This document shows positions 319 through 21,393 of a stretch of 64,000 bases of DNA, piece after piece. The position numbers and the translations under genes are program-made. Within the stretch, counting starts at the first letter, position 1, and each line of letters opens with the position of its first letter. The notes beneath the pieces are model-generated. The model did not search any database, was not told where the DNA came from, and saw only the letters and a list, made by a program, of their open reading frames with translations. This stretch comes from Oligoflexia bacterium (GTDB lineage Bacteria > Bdellovibrionota_G > JANQFH01): positions 1 to 64,000 of the forward strand of contig JANQFH010000008.1 of assembly GCA_028277945.1 (NCBI GenBank), given 5' to 3'.

Positions 319-573
319 TCAGGGTTTCAATCCACGCTTTTTTAACTCAGATTGGACCTGTCTCATCCACTTTTCGACCTTATTTCTAGACGGGTATAAG
401 AACTGGCCTAACGTTCGACCATTCTCGTCAATCTTGTCGATCCGCACATTGTTATTAGCGTTAGTTCCCGCATAAACTCCATCACCGATCCACTTCTTAT
501 ATAGTTTCAGTCGCTGTCGAAGTAGACGTGCGGTTTGTCGTTCAATCTGTCGTTTTATGTTGGACGTAGGCAT
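319..573 (-). CDS. Small basic hypothetical protein
   Basis: An 84-residue, strongly basic protein with no family I recognise. The N-terminal half is rich in Arg/Lys/Gln and looks helical; the C-terminal part has a short region ending in basic helices. It is the first island gene after attL and points toward it. No clear Shine-Dalgarno sequence precedes the ATG. A small nucleic-acid-binding protein is plausible from charge alone, but the gene could also be a chance reading frame. Confidence 0.4.
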   Translation of the reverse strand: MPTSNIKRQIERQTARLLRQRLKLYKKWIGDGVYAGTNANNNVRIDKIDENGRTLGQFLYPSRNKVEKWMRQVQSELKKRGLKP

Positions 574-693
574 CGGGAGCTATTCTAGCAGGCCTCTGTC
601 GTGGCTGCAATAGCCACACCATCAGCGCTCATGCCACAAATTAAACATAACCTCATGCTTTTATTGTATTTTTATGCTTTTTTGAATAAACTT

Positions 694-743
694 CCCATTT
701 TGGGAATTTTTTTATTGATCCCATTTTGGGAACATAGTATCAT
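694..743 (+). promoter_or_regulatory. Promoter with duplicated operator for the toxin-antitoxin operon
   Basis: A sigma70-type promoter is visible: TTGATC (715-720), a 17-bp spacer, and TATCAT (738-743). The 13-mer CCCATTTTGGGAA, containing the dyad CCCA-N3-TGGG, occurs twice (694-706 and 720-732). The second copy fills the spacer between -35 and -10. This is the expected layout for autorepression by a HigA-type antitoxin. The rest of the spacer from 574 to 800 shows no other feature. Confidence 0.65.
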
Positions 744-800
744 AGCTTTGAGGTATTGAGATGAAGTATCAATTTTGCGGCAGACGCAGATCGGACAGTC

Positions 801-1085
801 ATGGAATTACTCGGTCGGGGAAGACTTGACGACTTTTGCCGAGGTCATGCTGACGCGAGAAGTTGGATAAGCAACTGGATCAGCGAGGTGGAAGAGGCGG
901 TATGGAAGAGACCTTCTGACGTAAAAGAAAAGTATGCATCAGCAAGCATTCTTTCCGACAACCGAGTTGTGTTTAACGTGAAAGGGAATCGCTACAGGAT
1001 GCTTGTTCAAATAGCTTATAACACGGGCAAGGTAGTAGTGAAAAAGATCGGAACTCATGATGACTACGATACATGGGATCTATGA
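801..1085 (+). CDS. higB: HigB-family toxin (RelE-like mRNA interferase)
   Basis: 94 residues matching the HigB_toxin family along its length. Visible hallmarks are the N-terminal HADARSWISNW region, the central strand segment DNRVVFNVKGNRYRMLV, and the C-terminal signature KIGTHDDYD close to the family's VGTHxEYD. Family members are ribosome-dependent or free mRNA endonucleases that stall translation when their antitoxin is lost. The next gene starts 8 nt after the stop and encodes the matching antitoxin, so this is a toxin-first operon as in higBA. An upstream ATG at 761 is out of frame; the start at 801 gives a full-length family member. Confidence 0.85.
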   Translation: MELLGRGRLDDFCRGHADARSWISNWISEVEEAVWKRPSDVKEKYASASILSDNRVVFNVKGNRYRMLVQIAYNTGKVVVKKIGTHDDYDTWDL

Positions 1086-1093
1086 GGAAGCAT

Positions 1094-2302
1094 ATGGATC
1101 TTAAGATTATTAGAAATAAAGGTGAATATAGTGCCCTCCTAGAACAGGCAGAGGCTCTTGTTGCACTCGATCCTCGCTCTGGGACAGATGAAGCTAAAAG
1201 GCTTGATCTCATTTCATTGCTCATTGAAAAATACGAGAGAGATAATTTTTATTTTGAAATTCCCTCACCCGTTGACGCAATTAAATTCAGAATGGTGCAA
1301 CAGGGTCTAAAGCAAAGAGATCTAGTGCCCTATATTGGTAGTAGGAGTAAAGTTTCTGAAATTCTCTCAGGTAAAAGAAAGCTTACCCTTGCAATGATTC
1401 GTGCTCTGCATGAAGGTTTGGGCATTCCTGCAAAAATTCTTCTACAAGATCCAGATAAAGAGGAAGAGTCGCATGAAGAATTGGTCTGGCGTAGATTTCC
1501 AATAAAAGAAATGGTGAAGAAGGGCTGGATAAAGGCAAAGGCCAAGGATATAGCAGCTAATCCAAAGAAGATAATGCAAGGGTTCTTTGCACAGATAAAA
1601 AGTACCCATTCAATGCAAGCATTCTATCGTGGCACTATTCATAATCGAAATACTGAAAGGGTTGATCAATATGCTCTCAGAGCATGGACCGCAAAAGTTC
1701 TTTTAGAAGCGGAGAAGGTAGATGTTGACTCATTTAATTCAAATATTATCAACCAAGATTTCCTAAAAGAGTTAGCTCGTCTGAGTATCTTTGATAAGGG
1801 GCCTCTTCTCGCTGTCGAGTTTCTAAAGAAAAATAACATAGCTCTTGTCATAGTGCCTCACTTATCTAGAACGCTAGTAGATGGCTGTGCAATTATAACT
1901 GAAGACTCTAAGGCTATAATAGGCATGTCTATTAGATATGATCGTGTAGATAACTTCTGGTTTACTTTAATGCACGAATTGGTTCATTTGTGGAAACACT
2001 GCTCAAGAGAAGCAGATATCTTTGTTGATAACCTAGATCTAGAAGTAACGGAAGATCCAGTTGAAAGAGAAGCTGATATCACTGCAGGAGAAGTATTTAT
2101 TCCTCGTCAGCAATTTAAAAGGAGTAGGGCCTACTTACATAGATCCCGTGACGAAATTGAGAACTATGCCAGGCAACTTAAGATTCATTCTGCAATTGTA
2201 GCTGGAAGGATTCGGAAAGAATTCAAAAATTATCGAATTCTCAGCAGTTTAGTAGGGCATGGTGAAGTGAGAAAGCTTTTCAAAGAAAAACAGTGGGGAT
2301 AG
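1094..2302 (+). CDS. higA: HigA-type antitoxin fused to an ImmA/IrrE metallopeptidase
   Basis: The N-terminal 110 residues match HigA: a conserved acidic linker, then an XRE-type helix-turn-helix (MVQQGLKQRDLVPYIGSRSK followed by VSEILSGKRKLT). The C-terminal part carries the ImmA/IrrE zinc-peptidase motif HELVH near residues 294-298 and a downstream EREAD segment that supplies the usual third ligand. ATG 1094 is preferred over upstream starts because GAGG lies 6 nt before it and the HigA homology begins there. ImmA/IrrE peptidases typically cleave DNA-binding repressors under stress, so this protein may both neutralise HigB and sense a signal. It is followed closely by the beta-family gene. 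Confidence 0.85.
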   Translation: MDLKIIRNKGEYSALLEQAEALVALDPRSGTDEAKRLDLISLLIEKYERDNFYFEIPSPVDAIKFRMVQQGLKQRDLVPYIGSRSKVSEILSGKRKLTLAMIRALHEGLGIPAKILLQDPDKEEESHEELVWRRFPIKEMVKKGWIKAKAKDIAANPKKIMQGFFAQIKSTHSMQAFYRGTIHNRNTERVDQYALRAWTAKVLLEAEKVDVDSFNSNIINQDFLKELARLSIFDKGPLLAVEFLKKNNIALVIVPHLSRTLVDGCAIITEDSKAIIGMSIRYDRVDNFWFTLMHELVHLWKHCSREADIFVDNLDLEVTEDPVEREADITAGEVFIPRQQFKRSRAYLHRSRDEIENYARQLKIHSAIVAGRIRKEFKNYRILSSLVGHGEVRKLFKEKQWG

Positions 2303-2311
2303 GAAGATATA

Positions 2312-3409
2312 ATGTCAGAAAATTTAAAATACATCGCTTTCCTTAAAGGTAAGAAAGGTGAATTCGATGCCATCAAAAATTTAACGACGAAGACCCTTAG
2401 AAATGTCGTTCCATTATTTGATGTGCCGCCTCCACCATGGGATTGGAATGAAAAAAAGTACAAAAAGTCTTTAGATGATCATCTAATTGCCGTTGCAAAG
2501 AATATTGAAAAGAACTGTCAGGCTGTGAATCATGTTCTTATTGATCTATTTGCTATAAATCTGGATGAAAGAGTCGAGAAAGATAATCAGCATCCCTTGA
2601 CATTCCTTTTTGATCAGCTGAGGGAAATGAAGATTCATGCTACTCCAGTGACGGGACTTGATCGCAATGAGGAGCATTGGATCGCAGTCCAGGATATCGT
2701 GAGGAAAAATGGAGGGGTTGTCAGTTTAAGGCTAATGGAAGAAGATTTATTTGATAATGACACGCTAAAACGAAATATTGGCAACGTTTTGAATACAATC
2801 AATATACCTCCTGAATCAGTTGACCTTCTAGTTGATTTTCGAGGTATATCTGAAGATCAGGTTGAGTCCAAAGCAAGTTTCGTAAAAAATGTCCTTAATC
2901 AACTTCCGCATTGTAAGAAGTGGAGAAGTCTAACTGTAGCTGCGTCTGGATTCCCAGAGAATCTTTCTAAGGTTAAGAAAGATGATGAAGCATTTATACC
3001 TAGAGCTGAATGGAAAGTTTGGAAGAAACTATGGCACCATAGGGATTCGCTATTAAGGCTGCCTAACTACGGAGACTATGGTATTTGCCACCCAGATTTG
3101 CCAGAGATAGATCCTAGAACTATGAAAGTGAGTGCAGGTATCCGATATACGTTAGAAGAAGGCTGGCTTATTATTCGAGGTATGAATCTTAGAAAAGGGA
3201 AGAAAGGTGCTCAGTTCCATGATCTTTCTTCCAAGTTGATAAAGCGAAATGAGTATAAAGGAGGGGAATTCAGCTGGGGAGATGACTACATCAAAAAGTG
3301 CGCTATAGAAGAAAGAGGGCCAGGCAATTTAACTACGTGGCGTAATGTAGGTACGAACCATCATATTACGCTGGTAGCAGCTCAGCTCGCCAACCTTTCC
3401 GCTGCTTAA
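2312..3409 (+). CDS. Beta family protein (sce7725-like, T4 beta-protein family)
   Basis: 365 residues opening with KYIAFLKGKKGEFDAIKNL, the N-terminal signature of proteins annotated as beta family or sce7725. No catalytic motif is recognised; the family's biochemical role is unknown to me. It starts 9 nt after the HigA/ImmA stop, so it is probably in the same transcript. Its last 44 bp overlap, tail to tail, the end of the sce7726-like gene on the other strand. sce7725 and sce7726 families are named from adjacent Sorangium genes, so the two probably work together, here in convergent orientation. Confidence 0.75.
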   Translation: MSENLKYIAFLKGKKGEFDAIKNLTTKTLRNVVPLFDVPPPPWDWNEKKYKKSLDDHLIAVAKNIEKNCQAVNHVLIDLFAINLDERVEKDNQHPLTFLFDQLREMKIHATPVTGLDRNEEHWIAVQDIVRKNGGVVSLRLMEEDLFDNDTLKRNIGNVLNTINIPPESVDLLVDFRGISEDQVESKASFVKNVLNQLPHCKKWRSLTVAASGFPENLSKVKKDDEAFIPRAEWKVWKKLWHHRDSLLRLPNYGDYGICHPDLPEIDPRTMKVSAGIRYTLEEGWLIIRGMNLRKGKKGAQFHDLSSKLIKRNEYKGGEFSWGDDYIKKCAIEERGPGNLTTWRNVGTNHHITLVAAQLANLSAA

Positions 3410-3944
3410 GGGTATCACGTACAAGATGCTGCAGTTCATCTATTGTGAGATGTTCAATAAGACGAGACCATAGGGTTTCACGAGGCTTATTTGAATACCC
3501 CTTATGTAGTTTTAAAGATCTCAATGCTAGAAGCGCTTCGTCACGCCAGATCAATTGGACTAGAATGTCAGGATCAACTACTGGATTAGGCAATGAAGGA
3601 CGAGTTTCAATCAAACTAACAGTATTGTTAAAAGGAATTGCCTCAACGATACCCCACCAATCTGGAATGATTTTAATTGCTTTCTCAAGATGCTTCGGGT
3701 GAAGCACAATAGTAAACTCATCGAATATCTTACTATATACTTTTTCTTGTTTGGGAAGGCGGCGTAGTGTATCACGCTCACTCTTGATCTCGAATCCTTG
3801 AATGCTACCGTTAATGACTGCTAAATCGGTCCTGATAGCTCCCTCAGTTAGTCCCAATTCTTCTACTACTAAAGTATCAACATGTATTTTATTATCTTCT
3901 TGTATTTTGATCTTTAGCGCAGCTCTGATCTCGCTATCCTTCAT
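3366..3944 (-). CDS. sce7726-family protein, possible PD-(D/E)XK-type nuclease
   Basis: This matches the sce7726 family: the stretch IRTDLAVINGSIQGFEIKS has the D...E-x-K spacing of restriction-like nucleases, followed by the conserved DTLRRLPKQ segment. Nuclease activity is inferred from that pattern only. The start is taken at the ATG encoding MKDSEIRAALK, where the family homology begins; a start 48 nt upstream (3992) is also open, and neither has a clear ribosome site. It converges on the beta-family gene with a 44-bp antiparallel overlap, and its own promoter lies in the spacer before the HTH gene at 4088. Confidence 0.75.
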   Translation of the reverse strand: MKDSEIRAALKIKIQEDNKIHVDTLVVEELGLTEGAIRTDLAVINGSIQGFEIKSERDTLRRLPKQEKVYSKIFDEFTIVLHPKHLEKAIKIIPDWWGIVEAIPFNNTVSLIETRPSLPNPVVDPDILVQLIWRDEALLALRSLKLHKGYSNKPRETLWSRLIEHLTIDELQHLVRDTLKQRKGWRAELLPA

Positions 3945-4087
3945 AATATCAGTATGCACTATCTCATCACGTTTGGCTAAATCACAAACCATAAGTATCG
4001 GAATGACTATAGATTATACTGGTATAAAACCAAGAAAACCCAACAAAATCCTAGATGATAAGATAAAAGTGAAGTAATATTCATCAG

Positions 4088-4312
4088 ATGAGTCACATCA
4101 AGAGTGATGTTTCCGTTGGCGACACTGAAAGAGTACGTTGGTCTTCAGTTTCAGAGATTGCGGCTTACCTGGGTGTCAGCAAGGACACTATTTATACTTG
4201 GCTTTCACAAAAGCGAATTCCAGCTTACAGAGTAGGTAAACTATGGAAGTTTCAAGTTTCTGAAATCAACGAGTGGGTCCGTAGTGGTGGCGCTAGTGAG
4301 AAGAAAAGTTAG
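4088..4312 (+). CDS. Excisionase-family helix-turn-helix protein
   Basis: 74 residues with a MerR-like winged helix: SVSEIAAYLGVSKDTIYTWL followed by the wing KRIPAYRVGKLWKFQ. This is the AlpA/excisionase (HTH_17) fold. It lies 43 bp upstream of hsdM and probably shares its transcript. Small HTH proteins of this type at the head of type I R-M operons are plausible expression controllers; that role is inference. It is not close in sequence to the two excisionase-like proteins beside the integrase. Confidence 0.75.
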   Translation: MSHIKSDVSVGDTERVRWSSVSEIAAYLGVSKDTIYTWLSQKRIPAYRVGKLWKFQVSEINEWVRSGGASEKKS

Positions 4313-4355
4313 CCCACATGAATATTTAGAAAACCCCATTATTTGAGAATCATCT

Positions 4356-5975
4356 ATGCGACAAAAGAAGAGAAAATCTACCAAGAAAAAAACTACCAGA
4401 AATGGTCATGCTGATCTGATATCAGAGCTGTTTCAATCGGCTATCAAGTTGAGAGGTTCAATTGATGCTCCTGAATACAAGCGCTACGTTTTGCCGCTTA
4501 TATTTTTGCGGTTCCTGTCTCTTCGCTATGAAAAGAGAAGGGCGGCGCTTGAAGAAATGCTTGATAACAAAGATAGTGATTATTTCACCGAAGATAAGAA
4601 ACAACGAGAGGTGATTTTAGAGGATCCTGATGAGTACAGGGCAAAGGGCGCATTCATTATTCCTGAAAAGGCTCGTTGGTCCTACCTTCTAAAACATGCT
4701 CAAGATGACGATATAAAGCTGAAAGTCGATCAGGCCCTAGAGGCTCTCGAAGATGCATATCCTGAACAACTAAGAGGGCTTCTACCAAGAATTTTCGCGG
4801 GTTCAAATATTGAGCCACATAACCTTACTGGACTCATCAATCTCTTTTCTAAAGATGTGTTTAAGTCTGACCATGATGGGCTAGATCTTTTGGGTAGAAT
4901 CTACGAATACTTTATTGGTGAGTTTGCCGATTCCGAAGGTAAGCGCGGTGGCGAGTATTTTACGCCTGTCTCAATTGTTAAAACTCTCGTACACATGCTT
5001 GAACCCAAAGAGGGTATTGTTTTTGACCCGTGTTGCGGGTCAGGAGGCATGTTTGTACAGTCCGACATTTTTACCAAACATAACCATAAACTCAGTTTCT
5101 ATGGGCAAGAGTCAAAGGATTTTACGCTTCGACTCTGCAAGATGAGCCTCTTTATACATGATTTAGAGGGGAAAATTGAAATAGGCAATTCCTACACAAA
5201 TGACCGACACCCTGATCTAAAAGCAGATTATGTGTTGGCCAATCCACCGTTTAATGATGGTGCGAAAGGCGAAGACGGTTGGGGTGCAGATCGAGTTTCA
5301 GATCAAGACCTGCGCTTAAGAATAGGCGATGATAAGATGCCTCTAGCTGCTCGCAACGCCAACACAATGTGGATGCTCCATTTTCTGCATCACCTCAAAG
5401 AGGGTGGGACGGCAGGGTTTGTAATGGCTACAGGTGAACTTTCGAATAGTGAGACAGCACGTCTTGCAGTAAGAAAGGCGCTGGTGGAAGGAAACTATGT
5501 CGATTGTATAGTTCAGCTTTCAGGTCAGCTTTTTGCAAATACACAGATCCCTTGTTGCCTCTGGTTTTTGTCTAAGAACCGTGAAGGATCGCATGGATTT
5601 AGAGATAGGGAAGGAAAAATTCTTTTTATCGATGGGCGGAATCTTGGACGTTTGATTCCAGAATCGAGAAAACAAAAACAATTGTCAGATGAGGAAATAG
5701 AACAGATAGCCTCAATTTATCGACAATTTAGGGTGTCATCTGAGCCTGAAGAAATATTGGGGTTTTGTCGTGTGGCAACTCTTAAAGAGGTGAAAAATCA
5801 AAATTATGCGTTAACACCAGGACGCTATGTTGGATCTGAGGAGATTGAAGAAGATAGCGAGCCTTTTGAGGATAAATTTCCAAAACTTGCTAGCAAATTG
5901 GAACATCAGTTCTCAGAATCCGTTCGACTTCAAAAAACTATTCGGAAATCCTTGAAAGAGTTGTTGGATGTGTAA
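4356..5975 (+). CDS. hsdM: Type I restriction-modification methyltransferase subunit HsdM
   Basis: 539 residues. The N-terminal helical HsdM domain is followed by the N6-adenine methyltransferase core: SAM-binding motif I FDPCCGSGGM near residue 223 and catalytic motif IV NPPF near residue 296. Length is normal. Two HsdM chains join one HsdS to methylate the recognition site and protect self DNA. The gene overlaps hsdS by 8 nt, which indicates translational coupling in an hsdM-hsdS-hsdR operon. Confidence 0.95.
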   Translation: MRQKKRKSTKKKTTRNGHADLISELFQSAIKLRGSIDAPEYKRYVLPLIFLRFLSLRYEKRRAALEEMLDNKDSDYFTEDKKQREVILEDPDEYRAKGAFIIPEKARWSYLLKHAQDDDIKLKVDQALEALEDAYPEQLRGLLPRIFAGSNIEPHNLTGLINLFSKDVFKSDHDGLDLLGRIYEYFIGEFADSEGKRGGEYFTPVSIVKTLVHMLEPKEGIVFDPCCGSGGMFVQSDIFTKHNHKLSFYGQESKDFTLRLCKMSLFIHDLEGKIEIGNSYTNDRHPDLKADYVLANPPFNDGAKGEDGWGADRVSDQDLRLRIGDDKMPLAARNANTMWMLHFLHHLKEGGTAGFVMATGELSNSETARLAVRKALVEGNYVDCIVQLSGQLFANTQIPCCLWFLSKNREGSHGFRDREGKILFIDGRNLGRLIPESRKQKQLSDEEIEQIASIYRQFRVSSEPEEILGFCRVATLKEVKNQNYALTPGRYVGSEEIEEDSEPFEDKFPKLASKLEHQFSESVRLQKTIRKSLKELLDV

Positions 5976-7332
5976 TGAATGGCCCAGATTTGAGGTGCGA
6001 GACCTCCAAGATAAAAAGATTCTTTTAGTAGAAGATGGCAATCATGGTGAATATCGCCCACGCCGTGAAGAATTTTCCTTAACAGGCACTGCATTTATCA
6101 GAGCTGCGAATATGAAACCTGGGAAGGTTGAATTTGATTCTGCGGAATGTATCAATGACATTGCTTTAGCACGGTTGCGCAAAGGAATTGGTAAACCTGG
6201 CGATATTTTATTTTCTCATAAAGGTACAGTTGGGAAATTAGCTCCTATTCCAGATTCAGCTCCTCCTTTTGTGTGTTCACCTCAAACAACGTTCTGGCGA
6301 GTATTGGATGACTCTACAATCGAAAGGCGATTTTTGTATTACTTTATGCAGTCTGAACGGTTTCGTAATCAATGGTTTGTGCGTAAAGGTGAAACCGATA
6401 TGGCAGATTATGTAAGTTTAACTGCCCAAAGATCTTTCTGGATAGAAATACCTCCAATTGAAACGCAACAACTAATAATCTCTGTCCTTGCTCCTCTCGA
6501 TGACAAAATCGAATTAAATCGTGAAATGAACAGAACGCTTGAGACGATAGCCCAAGCTATGTTTAAGTCTTGGTTTGTTGATTTTGATCCTGTAGAAGCC
6601 AAAGCTGCTGGAAAGAAACCAGCCTATATGAGTGCAGAGATCGCAAAATTGTTTCCGAGCGGTTTTGAGGTCAGTGACATAGGGCCAATTCCTAGAGGAT
6701 GGAAAGTTCTCCCAATTGAAGATGTGACATCGCTGATAATTGATCATCGAGGGAAGACACCTAAGAAACTTAATTCTACTTGGGCGGCTAACGGGATTCC
6801 AGCGTTATCGGCAAAAAATATAAAGGCTGGGTATATTGTAAATAAAAATTCAATTAGATTTGTTGACCGATCACTCTATGAAAAGTGGATGACTAGACCA
6901 TTAGCACAGAGCGATGTGATATTAACGTCTGAAGGACCATTGGGAGAGCTGTATTTTTTATGTAAAGAAAAGGAGTATTGTTTGAGCCAAAGGCTATTTG
7001 CTCTACGTGCGAATAGTCAACCTGTGACGGGTGCCTATCTATATATGTGGCTTTCTACAGATATTGGATTTAGGGAGCTTCAAAATCGTGCAACGGGTAC
7101 AACCGTTTTGGGTATTAGGCAGAGTGAGCTTCGGAAGGTGCCTGTTCTAGTCCCAGACGCTAAGTTGTTGGCATCTACTAGTCACATTCTACTTTCCTTG
7201 TTAGAAATGATTCATGAATTTACTGAAGAAGCATCAGCTCTAGGACAGGTCCGTGATATTCTTCTTCCAAAACTTATGTCAGGCGAAATACGCATCAAAG
7301 ATGCCGAGCAATTGGTCTCAGAGGTGGCCTGA
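5968..7332 (+). CDS. hsdS: Type I restriction-modification specificity subunit HsdS
   Basis: 454 residues with the two-repeat layout of HsdS: target-recognition domain 1 (about residues 5-150), a central conserved coiled coil (LDDKIELNREMNRTLETIAQ), target-recognition domain 2 (about 230-380), and a second C-terminal conserved region ending LLPKLMSGEI. It sets the bipartite DNA target of the complex. The ATG lies within the last codons of hsdM and the stop abuts the hsdR start, so the three subunits are made together. The recognition sequence cannot be predicted from the protein. Confidence 0.93.
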   Translation: MCNEWPRFEVRDLQDKKILLVEDGNHGEYRPRREEFSLTGTAFIRAANMKPGKVEFDSAECINDIALARLRKGIGKPGDILFSHKGTVGKLAPIPDSAPPFVCSPQTTFWRVLDDSTIERRFLYYFMQSERFRNQWFVRKGETDMADYVSLTAQRSFWIEIPPIETQQLIISVLAPLDDKIELNREMNRTLETIAQAMFKSWFVDFDPVEAKAAGKKPAYMSAEIAKLFPSGFEVSDIGPIPRGWKVLPIEDVTSLIIDHRGKTPKKLNSTWAANGIPALSAKNIKAGYIVNKNSIRFVDRSLYEKWMTRPLAQSDVILTSEGPLGELYFLCKEKEYCLSQRLFALRANSQPVTGAYLYMWLSTDIGFRELQNRATGTTVLGIRQSELRKVPVLVPDAKLLASTSHILLSLLEMIHEFTEEASALGQVRDILLPKLMSGEIRIKDAEQLVSEVA

Positions 7333-10300
7333 ATGCCAAAACGAGGTACAGAAACTGAATTTGAACTGGCTGCTATCGAGAGACTTGAGACTCTGGGCTA
7401 TACACATATTCATGGTGAAGAGATTGAACGTGATCGAAAAGAGGTAATTCTAAAAGATCGACTACGGATCCATTTAGAGAAAGCCTATCCACATATCCCA
7501 GCTAGGAACTTAGAATCACTAGTATCGAACCTTTCACGGCCAGAAGGTGTAAATCTCTTACTTCGCAATAAGTCATTCCATTTGGCTGCCACTAATGGAA
7601 TTGAGGTAAAGATCGAAGGTAAGGAAAAATCGGATAAACATATGCATGTTTATCCGATTAATTGGGAAGATCCTTCTAAAAATGAGTACCTTGTTGTTAA
7701 TCAACTTTCAATTAGCGGTAAGAATGACCGAAGGCCAGATATCGTTATTTATGTGAATGGTCTTCCATTGGTGGTTTTTGAGTTAAAAAATCCTTATGAC
7801 GAGAATCCTACGGTTGAAGAAGCCTATAATCAAATTCAGCATTACATTGAAGATATTCCTCAGCTTTTTGAGTTTAATTGCCTGACAGTTGTATCTGATG
7901 GCGAAGAGACGCTTCATGGCATGTGGTCTGCTGGTAGTGAGTGGTTTGCTCCTTGGAAATCTATAGATGGAGACTCGGTTTCGTCTACAGGTGTTTCTAG
8001 TATGAAGGTCCTGATTGAAGGACTTTTTTTACCTGAAAGATTGCTCAACTACATACGTAATTTCATAGTTTTTGATACATCGGAAGAGAAGCTCACCAAG
8101 AAAGGCGCCAAGTATCATCAATTTTTTGCAGGAAATAAAGCTCTTGGCAACGCTGTCAAAGCTCAGAAAACAAAAGATAAACGAGTAGGAGTTATCTGGC
8201 ATACGACAGGTTCAGGTAAATCTCTAACTATGGGCTTTCTCGTTGGTCTAATGCGCAAACATTCCAAACTAGAAAACCCAACTATATTGATTGAAGTCGA
8301 TCGGACAGATCTTGATGGTCAGCTTCACGAACAGTTTGTTGGATTGAAAGACCTGGTTGGTAATGTGCATCGTGCTGAATCTGTTGAAGGCTTAAGAAAG
8401 ATTCTTAGTACGCACGGGGGAGAAGTTATATTTTCAACTGTTGAAAAATTTCGTTTAAGGGAAAGCGAGACCAAGCATCCTCTTCTTTCCAATAGAGAGA
8501 ATCTTTTCGTAATTGCTGATGAAGCTCATAGAAGCCAGTACGGGTTTCTAAAAGGTTATGCACGTTATCTCAACGAAGCTTTGCCTGAATCCAAACGTAT
8601 TGGTTTTACAGGTACTCCTATTAGTATGAGTCGAGGGGATACAAGAGCCGTTTTTGGTGACTATATTCACACTTATGACATTAAACAGGCTCAAGAAGAT
8701 GGGGCCACAGTGCCCATATTCTATGATGCCAGACAAATTAAGCTAGACCTAACTGGCATTGATATCGATGAAGCTATTGAAGAAATGGCTAACGTTATAG
8801 ATGCAGAAGGATTAGATCAGCGAAAAAGCAAGTGGGCGAATTTAGCAGCCGCTGCTGGGACAAAAGAACGCGTTGATAAACTCGCAAGAGATATTTTGGC
8901 TCATTTCAGAACTAGGACTGCTGAGTTTGAGGGCAAAGCTCTTGTGGTCTGTATGAACCGAGAAAACTGTGTCCGAGTTTATGATGCCTTGCAGGCTCTT
9001 CCAGCATGCCCTGAAATCAAGGTTATTATGACTACGAATCCAGCTAAGGACCCTAAAGAGTGGAATACCTCTGGACATGTCACAACAAAAAAACAGAGAG
9101 ACGATATTAAAGCCAGAATGAAAAAAGTCGATGACCCACTTAAGATAGCGATTGTTTGCGATATGTGGCTGACAGGTACAGATATACCGTGCCTTCATAC
9201 TCTTTACATCGATAAACCAATGAAAGATCACTCTATGATTCAGGCAATTTCTAGGGTCAATCGCGTATTCAAAGATAAGCCACATGGGCTAGTAGTTGAC
9301 TATATCGGCATAGCTCAAGAATTGAAAGAAGCGGCGTCTAGGTACACGAAAGACGGTTCTGGTGATTTGACTAGAGATGTTGAAGGTGAAGCTGTCCCAT
9401 TATTTATTGAGTATTTATCCAGGATACGTGGCGAGATGCCAGATGGAAAGAGCTATGAAGAATATGACAAGGCATCTCGTGTCGAAAGAGAAGACCTAAT
9501 GGCATCCATTTATGCAGCCTTGCTCGAAGATGAGACAAGAAAAGAAATATTTTTAGACATCGAGAATCAGCTTTCAAGGGCGTTTCTTTTGGTCAAGCAA
9601 CAAGATTCATGCAGAGGTTTTCTGGATGAAGTAGCATTTTATCAAGCCATACGAGGTCAGATTAAGAAGACGGATAGAAAGGCAGCACAACCGAAACGAT
9701 TTGATAATGCTGTGAGAGATTTAGTCGATACGGCAATATCATCACAAGGAGTGATTGATGTATTCAAGGTGGCAGGAATCGAAAGACCTGACATTTCCAT
9801 TTTGGATGACGCTTTTTTACAAGAATTTAAGAATAAAAAATACCCAAATTTACGGTTGCAGCTCCTTGAAAGGATGATGGAAGAGGAGATCAAGCGGTTC
9901 GAGCGTAAGAATAAGACTCGTGCTCGTAGTTTGATGGCTCTGCTAGAAGAAACATTAGGTAAATATCATAACAGGCTCATAGACTCTGCTCAGGTTATTA
10001 AGGTTCTTGTCGATATTCGGAAAAAATTAGAAGAAGAAGGTGAAAGGGCAGCCAAACTGGGTCTTAGTTCCGAGGAAATCGCTTTTTATGACGCTATAGT
10101 AGAGAATAAAGGTTCTATCTATGAGCAGCCATTCTTATGCAGCTTAATTCACGACATAGTAGAGACGATAAAACGTAGCCTTAAGGTGGACTGGACCGAA
10201 CCTCACCGTGAATCAGTAAGAGCTGAGGTGCGTGCTGCGGTAAAGCGTGTCCTTCGTAAGAACAAGATACAGGCCAATGATATGGAGTGGTTTACCAAAA

Positions 10301-10353
10301 GCTTCATGGAACAAGCTGAAAACATCTTCAAGAACTGGCCTGTGGCTGCCTAA
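7333..10353 (+). CDS. hsdR: Type I restriction endonuclease subunit HsdR
   Basis: 1006 residues, a complete HsdR. The N-terminal nuclease domain shows RPDIVIYVNGLPLVVFELKN, the D...E-x-K motif (about residues 136-152). The SF2 translocase follows, with Walker A GSGKS near residue 295, a DEAH box near 396 and motif III TGTP. The C-terminal helical region contacts the methylase. It cuts unmethylated foreign DNA after ATP-driven translocation. It begins directly after the hsdS stop. No frameshift is seen, so the system looks intact. Confidence 0.95.
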   Translation: MPKRGTETEFELAAIERLETLGYTHIHGEEIERDRKEVILKDRLRIHLEKAYPHIPARNLESLVSNLSRPEGVNLLLRNKSFHLAATNGIEVKIEGKEKSDKHMHVYPINWEDPSKNEYLVVNQLSISGKNDRRPDIVIYVNGLPLVVFELKNPYDENPTVEEAYNQIQHYIEDIPQLFEFNCLTVVSDGEETLHGMWSAGSEWFAPWKSIDGDSVSSTGVSSMKVLIEGLFLPERLLNYIRNFIVFDTSEEKLTKKGAKYHQFFAGNKALGNAVKAQKTKDKRVGVIWHTTGSGKSLTMGFLVGLMRKHSKLENPTILIEVDRTDLDGQLHEQFVGLKDLVGNVHRAESVEGLRKILSTHGGEVIFSTVEKFRLRESETKHPLLSNRENLFVIADEAHRSQYGFLKGYARYLNEALPESKRIGFTGTPISMSRGDTRAVFGDYIHTYDIKQAQEDGATVPIFYDARQIKLDLTGIDIDEAIEEMANVIDAEGLDQRKSKWANLAAAAGTKERVDKLARDILAHFRTRTAEFEGKALVVCMNRENCVRVYDALQALPACPEIKVIMTTNPAKDPKEWNTSGHVTTKKQRDDIKARMKKVDDPLKIAIVCDMWLTGTDIPCLHTLYIDKPMKDHSMIQAISRVNRVFKDKPHGLVVDYIGIAQELKEAASRYTKDGSGDLTRDVEGEAVPLFIEYLSRIRGEMPDGKSYEEYDKASRVEREDLMASIYAALLEDETRKEIFLDIENQLSRAFLLVKQQDSCRGFLDEVAFYQAIRGQIKKTDRKAAQPKRFDNAVRDLVDTAISSQGVIDVFKVAGIERPDISILDDAFLQEFKNKKYPNLRLQLLERMMEEEIKRFERKNKTRARSLMALLEETLGKYHNRLIDSAQVIKVLVDIRKKLEEEGERAAKLGLSSEEIAFYDAIVENKGSIYEQPFLCSLIHDIVETIKRSLKVDWTEPHRESVRAEVRAAVKRVLRKNKIQANDMEWFTKSFMEQAENIFKNWPVAA

Positions 10354-10372: not shown

Positions 10373-11851
10373 TTGAAAAGGGTTCAATTATCCAAAACCA
10401 AAGTCTGCCAAGGGCTTACCTGTCAAAAGGCTCTTCATCTACATGTGCATCAGCGTAATCTTGCTGCATCGGTTACACCGTCACAGCAAGCTTTGTTTGA
10501 CCAGGGCCGCGAAGTTGGCTTGAAAGCGCATGAGCGTTTTCCTGATGGCATGCATATCAGCGTGCCCCATTACCATCCAGATAAGGCGCTTGCTGCTACG
10601 AGCAAGGCGATAGCATCAGGTGCATTGACCCTTTACGAGGGCGCATTTCTCTATGACGACATCATTATCCGTTGCGATATTTTGACGAGGGAAGCAGTAG
10701 GCAAGCCTTGGCGACTGTATGAAGTGAAGTCTTCAACCTCACTTAAAGAGGAACATCTGCCAGATATAGCAGTTCAAAAGTATGTGTTAGAAGGCGCAGG
10801 GCAAAAGGTGGAAGGGTTTTTTCTTACACACCTCAATAAAGAGTGCTATTACCCAGATCTTTCTAATCTGTTTGTTGATGTGGAAGTCACCGACGATCTG
10901 CGTGAGTATTTGGATATCCTACCGTCAGAAATAGCCAAATTTAAAAAGATGCTCATGCAGCAATCACCCCCAGATATTGACATTGGACCTTATTGTAATA
11001 ATCCCTATGAATGCTCATTTAAAGCACATTGCTGGAAAGATGTACCTGTTCCATCGGTATTTAATATTCCAGGAATCAATGGTGATAAGAAATGGCAGTT
11101 CTATACAGATGGTGTCATTGAGTTAAGTGATTCACGTCTCACAGGACTAAACGAGATCCCGCAAAGGATGGTCGATAACAGTGTAGAGCAAAAACCATAC
11201 ATTGATAAATCAGGTTTGCAGGAAGAGCTAAGCCAGCTTGAATATCCTATTACCTATCTTGATTTTGAAACCATCGCTCCAGCTATTCCTCGGTTTGAAG
11301 GCTGTAGACCCTATGGTCCAGAGGTGCCTTTTCAGTTTGTTGTCTATGTAGAAAAGGAAGAGGGCGCTAAGCCAACTTGTGAGGAGTACCTTCATAAAGA
11401 TAATACTGATTCACGGCAGCCATTAATAGATGCTCTCTTAAAGGCTATCCCTGAAACTGGTTCAGTGGTTGCTTATTACAAGGCATTTGAAGCCAAATGC
11501 CTACGGGCATTAGCTGAGTTTGATCCTGCCAATGCCGATGAACTTTCATCCATTGAAAGCCGTCTATGGGATCCGATGGTCGCCATTAAGAAGTGTGTTT
11601 ACGATCCCAAGTTTTTGGGTAGCTATAGCTTGAAAGCTGTAGGGCCAGCACTCTTAGGTGAAGCTGCTTCTTATGCTGATATGGACGTTAGCGATGGTAC
11701 CGAGGCTCGTATTACTTTTGAGAAAATGATTAACATCAAAGACAATGGCAGTAAGAAAAACCAACTCTACAAGATGCTAAGCGATTACTGCCGCAAAGAT
11801 ACTTATCTCATGGCGGAATTGGTCAAGTGGATGAGACAAGTATTACTATGA
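10373..11851 (+). CDS. DUF2779-like protein: Cas4/RecB-type nuclease plus DEDD exonuclease domain
   Basis: 492 residues with two nuclease-like halves. The first half resembles Cas4/RecB: an EVKSS active-site segment near residue 117 and a probable iron-sulphur set, Cys12/Cys17 at the N-terminus and Cys208, Cys214 and Cys220 (in YCNNPYECSFKAHC). The second half looks like a DEDD RNase-H-fold exonuclease: YLDFET near 297, an acid-containing VAYYKAFEAKC segment, and a terminal YCRKDTYLMAEL aspartate. It starts 19 bp after hsdR and may be co-transcribed, suggesting DNA end-processing after restriction; that link is inference. Confidence 0.75.
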   Translation: MKRVQLSKTKVCQGLTCQKALHLHVHQRNLAASVTPSQQALFDQGREVGLKAHERFPDGMHISVPHYHPDKALAATSKAIASGALTLYEGAFLYDDIIIRCDILTREAVGKPWRLYEVKSSTSLKEEHLPDIAVQKYVLEGAGQKVEGFFLTHLNKECYYPDLSNLFVDVEVTDDLREYLDILPSEIAKFKKMLMQQSPPDIDIGPYCNNPYECSFKAHCWKDVPVPSVFNIPGINGDKKWQFYTDGVIELSDSRLTGLNEIPQRMVDNSVEQKPYIDKSGLQEELSQLEYPITYLDFETIAPAIPRFEGCRPYGPEVPFQFVVYVEKEEGAKPTCEEYLHKDNTDSRQPLIDALLKAIPETGSVVAYYKAFEAKCLRALAEFDPANADELSSIESRLWDPMVAIKKCVYDPKFLGSYSLKAVGPALLGEAASYADMDVSDGTEARITFEKMINIKDNGSKKNQLYKMLSDYCRKDTYLMAELVKWMRQVLL

Positions 11852-17517: not shown

Positions 17518-18621
17518 ATGGCTATCATAAAAAGAGAAACTAATAAGGGCTTTGTCTATGACGTTATCATACGTGATCTTGGGGGCAAGCAAAGGTGGAA
17601 GACGTTTTCTAAGAAGAAGGATGCAGAGCAGTTTGAAAGATTTGTTCTTGATAAGAAACACAGAGATGAATTTCCTGAAGTTTTTGATCCCAAAAAACGT
17701 ATCAACTTTTCAGAATTGGCAAAAAAGTGGTTAGAATTACATTCAAAGCCTAATAAAGCTCCTAAGAGCTACGTTAAAGACCGAGGTGTCTGCTATAATT
17801 ATTTGATCCCACATTTTAGCAATACGCTTGTTCAGCGTATTACCACAGAACAGGTTCAAGAGTACCTCACGTATAGGCTACAGAGTATCTGTTCAAAAAC
17901 AAAGAGATCTGTGTCTCCCAATACCGTTAATAGAGAGCTTGAGATCATCCGTAAGATGTTCAATGATGGCATCAAATGGGGCTACTTAAGACAGAATCCA
18001 TGCAAGGGGATAAAAAAGTTCAAAGAGAAAAGCCGTCGTACAGAATTTTTGTCTGAAAAAGAAGTTCGTAATCTCCTGAACAATGTTCTTTCATCTGACC
18101 TGACTCTTTTTGCTACAGCCATATATACTGGCATGAGGTTTGGTGAATTGGCTAACCTTGAAAAAAAACACGTAGATCTGAAAAAAGGCTTGATTACAGT
18201 TGAGATTGGGAGTGAAGAATCAGGTACTACCAAAAGCGGCAAAATAAGGTACATACCAATAGCAACTGCGCTCAAGCCTCACATAAAAGAAGCTCTTAGC
18301 TCATCTGGTAAGCTATTATTTCCATCAAAAAGAGGGCCAGACATAAAGAGAACCGAGGCTACCAAGGCCCTAGAAGGCGCCCTTAAACGAGCGGGTATAA
18401 AAAGACACATTCGTTTCCATGATCTCCGTCATACCTTTGCCAGTCATTTTGTTATGAGGGGAGGGGATTTGTTAGCTCTAAAGGAACTACTAGGGCACTC
18501 TGACTTGCAAATGGTGCAACGTTATGCACATCTTGCTCCCGATCATCTTAGAGGAGCTATAGATCGCCTTGATTTTTCAGTAACAGGTAGATCTGCTGGG
18601 GATTCAGAGGGTGATAAATAG
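17518..18621 (+). CDS. int: Tyrosine recombinase / integrase of the island
   Basis: 367 residues with an N-terminal arm-binding domain (about 1-60), a core-binding SAM-like domain (about 65-165) and the catalytic domain. Catalytic residues are in place: Arg207 (TGMRFGEL), His301 and Arg304 (HDLRH), His327 (LGHSD) and the nucleophile Tyr336 (MVQRYAHL). It should catalyse exchange between the two tRNA-fMet core repeats. It lies about 2.7 kb from attR, not directly at it; the PIN-GNAT operon sits between. AAGGAG precedes the ATG at good spacing. Confidence 0.95.
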   Translation: MAIIKRETNKGFVYDVIIRDLGGKQRWKTFSKKKDAEQFERFVLDKKHRDEFPEVFDPKKRINFSELAKKWLELHSKPNKAPKSYVKDRGVCYNYLIPHFSNTLVQRITTEQVQEYLTYRLQSICSKTKRSVSPNTVNRELEIIRKMFNDGIKWGYLRQNPCKGIKKFKEKSRRTEFLSEKEVRNLLNNVLSSDLTLFATAIYTGMRFGELANLEKKHVDLKKGLITVEIGSEESGTTKSGKIRYIPIATALKPHIKEALSSSGKLLFPSKRGPDIKRTEATKALEGALKRAGIKRHIRFHDLRHTFASHFVMRGGDLLALKELLGHSDLQMVQRYAHLAPDHLRGAIDRLDFSVTGRSAGDSEGDK

Positions 18622-18799: not shown

Positions 18800-20251
18800 A
18801 TGCGTTTTTTGTTGGATACCAATATACTTATTCCTCTAGAGGATTCAAAGGCTGTATTAAAACCAAGTTTAAGCCGATTTATTCAATTAGCATCGAGTAA
18901 TGGGCATGCTCTTCTGTATCACCCTGCATCTGAGCAGGACATTCAACGTGATACAGATGAAAATAGAAGATCACAAACACTTGCTCGAATTAAAAGATAT
19001 CAGCGTTTAGAGAATCCACCTGACTGTCCATGGAATACCAGCGGTACAAGTGCAAATGATGTAGCTGATAATGAAATTCTGTATGCATTGGAACGCAATG
19101 CTGTTCATGCGTTGGTCACCGAAGATAGATTGATTCATACAAAGGCGAAACAGAGAGGGATTGGTAACCGTGTTTATTATATCCAAACAGCAGAAGAATG
19201 GCTGAAACGTCTTCATAGTGAAGAGCCGCTAGCGCTTCCGAATATCAAAAAAATTAATTTGTATGAACTCGAAGTTGAACATGAATTTTTTGACACCCTT
19301 CGTGCGAGCTATGAACGGTTTAATACATGGTTCAATAGAGCAGCGCAAAATGGCAGAAAAGCATGGATGTATGGTGAAGACCCCAGCAAATTAGAAGCTC
19401 TTTGTATATACGCGGTCCAAAACGATGAGAGAATAACCGACAAAGGGGCAATACTAAATGGGAAAGCTCTTAAGTTATGCACTCTTAAAGTAGGTGAGGC
19501 AGTAAGGGGGCGTAAAATTGGAGAACTGTTCCTAAAAGCTGCTTTTAGATATGCAACTAGCAATGAAATTGAAAACATATTTATTACCGCTAAATCGGAG
19601 GAATATCATCTTCTGGACCTTTTGGTTGATTTTGGGTTTGTAGAATCAGGTTCTTACAGAGGGGATGTCGTCTATGTGAAGCCCCATCCTATTCTTCCAC
19701 CCAAAGACGATTTAGCTACGTTCGAGTTTCATCAAAGATATTTTCCGCATTTCAGAGATGATGAAGAAGTTCAAAAATTTATTGTCCCAATTAAGCCTCA
19801 ATATCACACTATTCTGTTTCCTGACTATGAAGCCCCGCAAGAACAGCTTCAATTAGGTTTGAATCAATCTCATGTTGGAAATGCTATAAAGCTTGCCTAT
19901 CTTTGCCACGCACAGGTAAACTCGATGAAGAGAGGGGACATTGTACTTTTTTATCGCTCCACTGATTTAAAAGCCCTCACAAGTCTTGGAATTGTTGAAA
20001 GTTTTTCAGTCTCAAATGATTCGGACGAGGTTGCTAGTATGGTGTCAAGAAGAACGGTCTATAACTTAAAAGAGATAAAAAAGATGACAGTCCGAAAAAC
20101 AAAAGTAATTTTGTTCAGGCTTGTACGGCATTTTGAGAAGCCGATAAAATTTGATTGGCTTATAAAAAATGGAATAGTAAACGGGTATATTAGGTCAATT
20201 CAGAAGATTGCAGATGATAGCTATCGAGAAGTTGTAAATTATGCAAGGTAG
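18800..20251 (+). CDS. PIN-GNAT-PUA/EVE-like fusion protein
   Basis: 483 residues in three parts. Residues 1-135 form a PIN nuclease domain: MRFLLDTNILIPLED with Asp6, a later ADNEILYALERNAVHALVTE block and TEDRLIHTKAK. Residues about 200-285 look like a GNAT acetyltransferase, with LKVGEAVRGRKIGELFLKAA resembling the acetyl-CoA loop (RGxKIG). Residues about 315-480 resemble an EVE/PUA-like nucleotide-binding domain (IKPQYHTILFPD; GDIVLFYR). The stop overlaps the ASCH gene by 11 bp. An RNase and a modifying enzyme in one chain suggest a toxin- or defence-like effector; this is inference. Confidence 0.75.
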   Translation: MRFLLDTNILIPLEDSKAVLKPSLSRFIQLASSNGHALLYHPASEQDIQRDTDENRRSQTLARIKRYQRLENPPDCPWNTSGTSANDVADNEILYALERNAVHALVTEDRLIHTKAKQRGIGNRVYYIQTAEEWLKRLHSEEPLALPNIKKINLYELEVEHEFFDTLRASYERFNTWFNRAAQNGRKAWMYGEDPSKLEALCIYAVQNDERITDKGAILNGKALKLCTLKVGEAVRGRKIGELFLKAAFRYATSNEIENIFITAKSEEYHLLDLLVDFGFVESGSYRGDVVYVKPHPILPPKDDLATFEFHQRYFPHFRDDEEVQKFIVPIKPQYHTILFPDYEAPQEQLQLGLNQSHVGNAIKLAYLCHAQVNSMKRGDIVLFYRSTDLKALTSLGIVESFSVSNDSDEVASMVSRRTVYNLKEIKKMTVRKTKVILFRLVRHFEKPIKFDWLIKNGIVNGYIRSIQKIADDSYREVVNYAR

Positions 20252-20726
20252 AAACACAGCTCTACTATCTATAAAACCAATATATGCTGATTCGATATTA
20301 GATGGTGCAAAGAGGTTTGAATTTCGTAAAGTTGGTTTAAAGGAAGATGTTGAATTTATTCTTATATATGCTTCTTCTCCTGTCAGAGAATTTGTTGGTT
20401 TGGCTGAGGTAGAAAAAATAATTAAGGGCTCTCCGAAGGCGCTCTGGAAGTTAGCTGGTGATTTGGGTGGAATAACGAAAGAAGACTACAATGAGTATTT
20501 TCGAGGAAAGAGATACGGATATGCCATAAAAATAAAGGAAATTTATAGATTTGAAAACCCTATAGCTCCTAAGAAAGTGTTTAGAAAATTCCATCCACCT
20601 CAATCATTTATGTATATATCACGTAATAAGGTTGAGGGTGTTTTGAAAGCGATAGGAGATGAAATTAGTCTTTGTTGGTGGCATTCACGGTGTAGGCAAG
20701 ACGACATTTTGTCAGCATGTTGCTAA
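20241..20726 (+). CDS. ASCH-domain protein
   Basis: 161 residues opening with the ASCH/PUA-like signature: ALLSIKPIYADSILDGAKRF followed by EFRK, containing the GxKxxExR motif. ASCH proteins bind RNA or modified nucleosides and some cut RNA or hydrolyse acetylated nucleosides. It overlaps the PIN-GNAT gene by 11 bp and the P-loop gene by 68 bp, so the three are probably translated together. Its last 22 residues come from the out-of-frame start of the next gene and look unrelated to the domain, which suggests an original stop was lost. Confidence 0.75.
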   Translation: MQGRNTALLSIKPIYADSILDGAKRFEFRKVGLKEDVEFILIYASSPVREFVGLAEVEKIIKGSPKALWKLAGDLGGITKEDYNEYFRGKRYGYAIKIKEIYRFENPIAPKKVFRKFHPPQSFMYISRNKVEGVLKAIGDEISLCWWHSRCRQDDILSACC

Positions 20727-21192
20727 CAAGTGCGGTTTGACTCACCTTACGGCTAGCGAATTAATTAAAGAACGGCTCCCATCTGCAATTTCAAAGGGCA
20801 GGAAAAGCGTAAAGAATCTCGATGAGAATCAAAAAGCTTTAGTCGAAGCTATTACTGCCTGCCGAGCGAACAATGACGCAATAATACTCGATGGTCATTT
20901 TACACTCTTGGTAGGGAGTAACATCGAACCAGTACCGCTAACGGTTTTTTCCAAAATCAATCCTAAATTAATTGTAGTTCTAACAGCGAAGCCCAAAACT
21001 ATATACGAGAGGCTTTACGCAAGAGATGGGGCCAGGATACCACTCCATAGTATCCAGCAGCATCAGGAGGAAGAACTCCGACATGCGAGTGTAGTCGCCA
21101 ATGATCTAGGCATTCCCATTCTGACAGTTGATGTCGAAGAGGATAGTGCCGATCCCGCCATTTTAAGAATTAGCGCAATCTTGGCTGGGTAG
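20659..21192 (+). CDS. P-loop kinase-like ATPase
   Basis: 177 residues. Walker A is at the N-terminus (MKLVFVGGIHGVGKTTFCQH). The later IILDGHF segment resembles a Walker B or substrate site, and ERLYARDGAR has the Arg pair seen in LID regions of adenylate- or nucleoside-kinase-like proteins. Substrate unknown. AGGAG lies directly against the ATG, so spacing is poor and coupling to the overlapping ASCH gene is likely. It is the last island gene before attR. Confidence 0.75.
   Translation: MKLVFVGGIHGVGKTTFCQHVANKCGLTHLTASELIKERLPSAISKGRKSVKNLDENQKALVEAITACRANNDAIILDGHFTLLVGSNIEPVPLTVFSKINPKLIVVLTAKPKTIYERLYARDGARIPLHSIQQHQEEELRHASVVANDLGIPILTVDVEEDSADPAILRISAILAG

Positions 21193-21315: not shown

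Positions 21316-21393
<78 letters not shown>

Follow-up and report, generated by a model that had tools for sequence, protein, structure and literature searches.

Anatomy of the locus

The DNA analyzed here, a stretch of 64,000 nucleotides that we call the window, contains a PD-Lambda-2 locus, made up of genes A, B, and C, together with a convergent fourth gene, D (Table 1). A preliminary description of this DNA had proposed a four-gene module whose last gene is convergent, with a 44-bp tail-to-tail overlap; this was correct, and the four open reading frames (ORFs) lie at the coordinates that it gave. Genes A and B overlap by 13 bp, and B and C are spaced by 9 bp. An ATGA stop/start at 1082-1085, where A ends, offers an alternative, possibly the true, start for B at 1082. 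By its PADLOC matches, A-B-C is a member of PD-Lambda-2, and we consider this membership and the anatomy of the locus firm. Since A-B-C match PD-Lambda-2 and D matches cII of the satellite phage P4, the window unites the core of one known system with the third gene of another.

Table 1. Features of the locus, with positions in the window
Feature	Position	Strand	Description
Gene A	801-1085	+	HigB-like (RelE superfamily), PD-Lambda-2_A; PF09907 6e-27, PADLOC 4.5e-40, PDB HigB 5ycl_B 6.6e-5
Gene B	1073-2302	+	HigA-like HTH fused to ImmA/IrrE (M78) zinc peptidase; PD-Lambda-2_B, PADLOC 6.7e-152
Gene C	2312-3409	+	Beta protein, PF14350 1e-75; PD-Lambda-2_C, PADLOC 1.3e-74; predicted TIM barrel
Gene D	3366-3944	-	sce7726/P4-cII family, predicted PD-(D/E)XK nuclease; ORF open to ATG 3992
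C/D tail-to-tail overlap	3366-3409		44 bp; C stop 3407-3409, D stop 3366-3368
Operator palindrome O1 (putative)	692-706	+	TTCCCATTTTGGGAA; motif family upstream of A
Operator palindrome O2 (putative)	719-732	+	TCCCATTTTGGGAA; 26 bp from O1, overlaps promoter-like site

Genes A and B

B matches PF06114 (Peptidase_M78, 1.9e-7) and HTH_3 in Pfam, its PADLOC match to PD-Lambda-2_B spans 399 positions, and its residues 13-121 match the solved HigA 5ycl_A (6.7e-7). The HELVH motif, previously placed at residues 294-298, was found at exactly these residues, and H294, E295, H298, H302, D312, and E324 are each present in 100% of 84 homologues. Judged from its sequence, B retains the zinc-peptidase residues. 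RosmerTA (RmrTA) and CapH/CapP also combine an HTH with an ImmA/M78 peptidase, separate or fused; an assignment of B to RosmerTA or CapP was rejected, the matches being weak (RmrA, 1e-4; CapP, 2e-6) against that to PD-Lambda-2_B.

The locus shares with HigBA type II toxin-antitoxin (TA) systems (5ycl, 5ifg) a HigB homologue in first place, a HigA-like HTH in second place, and a palindromic operator upstream, but here HigA carries a fused zinc peptidase and two extra genes are present. A simple HigBA TA with a peptidase-free HigA was rejected, because the M78 peptidase is fused to HigA and beta comes next. The earlier view that this looks like a defense system rather than a simple TA gains support, as A-B-C corresponds to PD-Lambda-2, an experimentally shown abortive infection system (PMC9519451). 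In E. coli, the toxic protein is B and not A, B being toxic alone and A rescuing (PMC9519451), which calls for caution in treating A as an ordinary HigB toxin.

The same genome encodes another HigA-ImmA homologue (L002, 939-2117), which lies next to a transposase-like gene and has no beta.

Palindromes upstream of gene A

The sequence TCCCATTTTGGGAA occurs twice upstream of A, 26 bp apart, and these two are all the TCCCANNNTGGGA sites that the 64-kb window contains, against 0.03 expected. The palindrome is conserved: members of the family TTCCCA-N3-TGGGAA, a motif that was defined on the window plus a few relatives before being counted over the whole set, precede A in 40 of 75 loci, compared with 0.5 expected in shuffles. 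Strict matches number 62 before A (overlapping matches inside one palindrome are included, so that separate sites are fewer) and 2 elsewhere in 907 kb. Two E. coli loci (L153 and L154) carry near versions, agreeing at 11 of 12 positions. The motif is absent from the beta loci that have no HigB, which assigns it to the A-B module; as an operator of D it was rejected, with 0 strict matches before that gene. We regard the palindrome as a putative operator that B may bind.

A promoter-like site surrounds O2 (TTGATC at 715-720, TATCAT at 738-743). The sigma-70-like consensus did no better than chance (6 found versus 9.4 expected in shuffles), and for D, no candidate promoter exceeded chance expectation.

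The beta protein

Gene C had been labeled sce7725; it matches no NCBIfam family, so beta/PF14350 is the better name. A sequence search of the PDB gave no significant relative of C, the closest beta protein compared is 33% identical to it, and a single-sequence query of IMG/VR with beta gave no match. The AF2 model of C is confident (pLDDT 94.6, pTM 0.93), and Foldseek returned 44 PDB matches below 1e-3 with TIM barrels ranking first; the TM-scores were modest, at ~0.3 to 0.5. Residues P34, D78, D175, D255, and H351 are conserved in at least 65 of 68 proteins, P4 beta among them, and several conserved residues lie at or near strand ends in the predicted secondary structure. The conserved polar residues, taken with the TIM-barrel-like prediction, suggest that beta is an enzyme or a ligand binder and not a plain antitoxin.

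It is conceivable, if doubtful, that beta and not the peptidase acts as the trigger. As a TIM-barrel enzyme, it would produce or break down a small signal needed for the peptidase or the nuclease to act, and its known antitoxin effect on Gop would be a by-product. Such a role fits the confident model with its TIM-barrel matches and the constancy of the five residues, even in P4, while the partners vary (HigB, Gop, DUF6932, GNAT, and others); it fits less well with the absence of R231 and Y256 from P4 beta.

The predicted nuclease and its overlap with beta

The fourth gene had been drawn from 3366 to 3992. The ORF is indeed present, but the protein is probably shorter (192 amino acids, from ATG 3944), since alignment with the family profile starts only at residue 17 of that ORF. 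D matches the NCBIfam family sce7726 (NF033832, 4.9e-49) and the PADLOC P4 'cll' profile (5.4e-28), and residues E29, D40, E52, K54, D58, and Q66 are invariant in 61 proteins, P4 included. By sequence, D has no significant relative in the PDB. Its AF2 model (pLDDT 93.3) has an alpha-beta-beta-beta-alpha-beta core, and a structure search placed 3dnx first (5e-6, the sole PDB match below 0.001), followed by the Cas4 protein SSO0001 (4ic1) at a weak E value of 0.01. The predicted PD-(D/E)XK core aligns best to SPO1766 (3dnx), which we take to be a member of an MmcB/DUF1052-like family, and weakly to Cas4 SSO0001; identities are 17% and 13%, respectively, and significance is reached for 3dnx alone. 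By sequence, D retains a complete PD-(D/E)XK site, within a matching modeled fold, and is a predicted nuclease.

Of 56 convergent C/D pairs, 51 overlap by at least 10 bp, 50 bp being the commonest length, and 48 of these 51 share one phase, as do 30 of 30 where HigB is present. Recurring in this way, the overlap is not due to chance. Nor is it required, since the P4 pair has a 27-bp gap and a terminator.

Association of gene D with beta

We collected 80 GTDB loci with a B homologue, from which the A to D profiles were built. C is present in 45 and D in 34, and all 34 copies of D are convergent with C. Considering the PD-Lambda-2-type loci that have beta and enough sequence to show D, D is found in 34 of 42. 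The expectation that the four families occur together elsewhere therefore holds in these 34 loci, mostly from other phyla, whereas the beta/sce7726 pair is often found without HigBA.

As the 80 loci were picked by similarity to the B of the window, samples picked otherwise were required. Each was drawn from the phylum of one starting genome. With a Pseudomonas genome as the start, 13 of 399 genomes have beta, and D is adjacent and convergent in 10 of these; with a Bacteroidetes genome, D is so placed in all 6 beta-bearing genomes out of 346; with a Patescibacteria genome, beta occurs at 4 loci in 380 genomes, and all 4 are full A-B-C-D loci. Pooled, the three phylum samples give D adjacent and convergent in 20 of 23 beta-bearing genomes, or 18 of 20 once the genome from which each sample started, a known B carrier, is set aside. 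Counting family matches over curated cutoffs, the first and third samples (779 genomes) contain 14 genomes with both genes, 3 that have beta alone, and 4 that have D alone (Fisher p = 7e-24); three genomes of the first sample (G030, G275, and G409) have D without a beta family match over the cutoff in the same genome. Beta proteins typically have D as their convergent neighbor.

It might be argued that D is a passenger of beta, an independent defense nuclease or regulator that the overlap makes hard to separate and that has no role in HigBA-ImmA function. That beta-cII exists without HigBA, that HigBA-ImmA occurs without beta in 35 of the 80 loci, and that the tested form of PD-Lambda-2 is devoid of D would all agree with this. 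If D were independent of beta, though, it should be common alone, yet it adjoins beta in 14 of the 18 D-bearing genomes of the two samples, and its catalytic residues are invariant; we judge a passenger role rather unlikely and prefer to see D as a working part of the locus.

Modularity and relation to known systems

PD-Lambda-2, found by functional selection, consists of three genes, acts by abortive infection, and requires C against lambda-vir (PMC9519451). The window has the same three genes (HigB-like, HigA-ImmA, and beta), in the same order and on the same strand, but belongs to a different phylum and adds the convergent, overlapping PD-(D/E)XK gene. The E. coli loci of the PD-Lambda-2 type (strain C and others; L153 to L155) have A-B-C without D. 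This D-less type and the three-gene composition of the tested system indicate that the mechanism of PD-Lambda-2 does not in itself depend on D. In the beta tree, most of the D-less rows fall in a beta/gammaproteobacterial group with the E. coli loci, and accounting for the presence of D takes only 4 changes over the typed rows of this 76-row tree, which is unrooted and has many weak forks. Loss of D in the D-less clade is a simpler reading than gain, because P4 and distant ImmA-beta loci have D.

The gop-beta-cII system of P4, which protects against lambda and P1 (PMC9122126), has the same arrangement of beta facing a convergent cII/sce7726 gene, with the same invariant D residues. Gene C also matches the PADLOC beta profile of gop-beta-cII (6.7e-10). 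The two loci differ in that the window has HigB and HigA-ImmA instead of Gop, and an overlap where P4 has a gap with an annotated terminator. No match to gop was found among nine proteins scanned at 319-10353, with a profile that finds P4 Gop at 4.8e-70. The idea that Gop is itself an ImmA-like peptidase was rejected, as it has no Pfam match.

Upstream of beta, we found HigB with HigA-ImmA; XRE-ImmA with DUF6932 or DUF4917; Gop; stand-alone ImmA with GNAT or with apparently membrane proteins; or nothing recognized. Without HigBA, beta-cII is found in P4 gop-beta-cII, a Rac prophage, actinophages, and plasmids, which points to a portable core joined to different toxin or peptidase modules. The preliminary description had considered that independent carriage of sce7725/sce7726 would speak against its module, and such carriage is partly a fact (P4, Rac-SA53, Rhodococcus, and a Gordonia phage). 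With the pair found without HigBA and HigBA-ImmA found without the pair, these are two joined modules and not one indivisible four-gene system; the association nevertheless stands. In the beta-less HigBA-ImmA loci, a common replacement gene was sought by clustering the downstream ORFs and rejected, none being shared.

What looks new is the presence of gene D, the connection of this gene with gop-beta-cII, the operator, and the fold of beta, whereas the PD-Lambda-2 system itself is known; in the open-access literature searched, we found no paper on any of these four. PD-Lambda-2 and gop-beta-cII, which are listed as separate defense systems, are linked here through one conserved pair, and the E. 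coli-type PD-Lambda-2 is without a component that most relatives keep. This suggests that the three-gene definitions in annotation tools under-describe most such loci. We are evenly divided on a broader proposal, namely that beta, as a TIM-barrel enzyme, and the overlapping cII nuclease form an ancestral defense core whose upstream modules were swapped (HigB-HigA/ImmA; ImmA/GNAT/others; DUF6932/XRE-ImmA; Gop). PD-Lambda-2 and gop-beta-cII would then be branches, the E. coli type being a reduced, nuclease-less one.

Several individual loci deserve mention. In L131 and L146, a parallel set of four genes encodes a DUF6932 protein (PADLOC PDC-M63A), XRE-ImmA, beta, and a convergent sce7726. In L133, L134, L135, L139, and L140, an apparently membrane protein is followed by a stand-alone ImmA and directly by beta, possibly a separate defense type. 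On an Acinetobacter pittii plasmid (L147, 14557-25720), a block with blaNDM-1, IS30, and IS91 separates two parts of a beta gene in an ImmA-beta-cII module.

Proposed mechanism

From these features we infer a scheme of operator binding, triggering, a role for D, and a division into sensor and effectors, and it seems to us reasonably probable that the window holds a D-bearing PD-Lambda-2 anti-phage locus working along these lines. HigA-ImmA (B) would bind the TTCCCA-N3-TGGGAA operators and keep A-B-C expression low, with A and B held in a mutually neutralizing complex. The ImmA peptidase would be triggered by infection, probably through damaged DNA or exposed ssDNA in the manner of IrrE/PprI, and would then cut the HTH half and release both repression and A/B toxicity. 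There are precedents in PprI/IrrE, which senses ssDNA (PMC10904395), and in ImmA, which cleaves an HTH repressor (PMC10440598); even so, we would give a trigger of this kind about an equal chance. Beta, likely enzymatic or ligand binding, would couple trigger to response and be needed for defense. D, which would be transcribed from a separate promoter and is coupled to beta through their overlap, may act as another effector by cleaving nucleic acid, which would give the cell a nuclease arm beside a translation-arrest arm; whether D is an effector or a regulator we consider evenly balanced. Three features of the locus lend themselves to direct tests: the nuclease site of D and the operator, both named here, and the conserved residues of a predicted enzyme.

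Genomic surroundings

The locus lies at one end of a 21-kb island of low G+C content (110-21392; ~0.41 versus 0.52) that ends in tRNA-Met. The 3' part of this tRNA gene is repeated over 48 bp at 110-157 and 21318-21365 (85% identical), and the island integrase lies at 17518-18621. With A and B matching solved HigB and HigA, this position would suit an ordinary HigBA addiction module that stabilizes the tRNA-Met island, beta and sce7726 being bystanders. We find that improbable: the PD-Lambda-2 relatives give protection against lambda that depends on C, the coupling to beta and the nuclease is conserved in many phyla, and restriction-modification genes adjoin. An anti-phage role remains our preferred reading of the locus.

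Between the integrase and tRNA-Met (18800-21192), two genes without a Pfam match and an AAA-type kinase-like gene overlap one another. At 4088-10353, the type I restriction-modification genes come after a MAD1-like HTH gene that is divergent from D, with ~95 to 143 bp between the two; as a conserved partner of D, this HTH gene was rejected, being present only in the window among the loci compared. Directly 3' of hsdR, at 10373-11851, lies the gene for a DUF2779 protein with a Cas4-like stretch.
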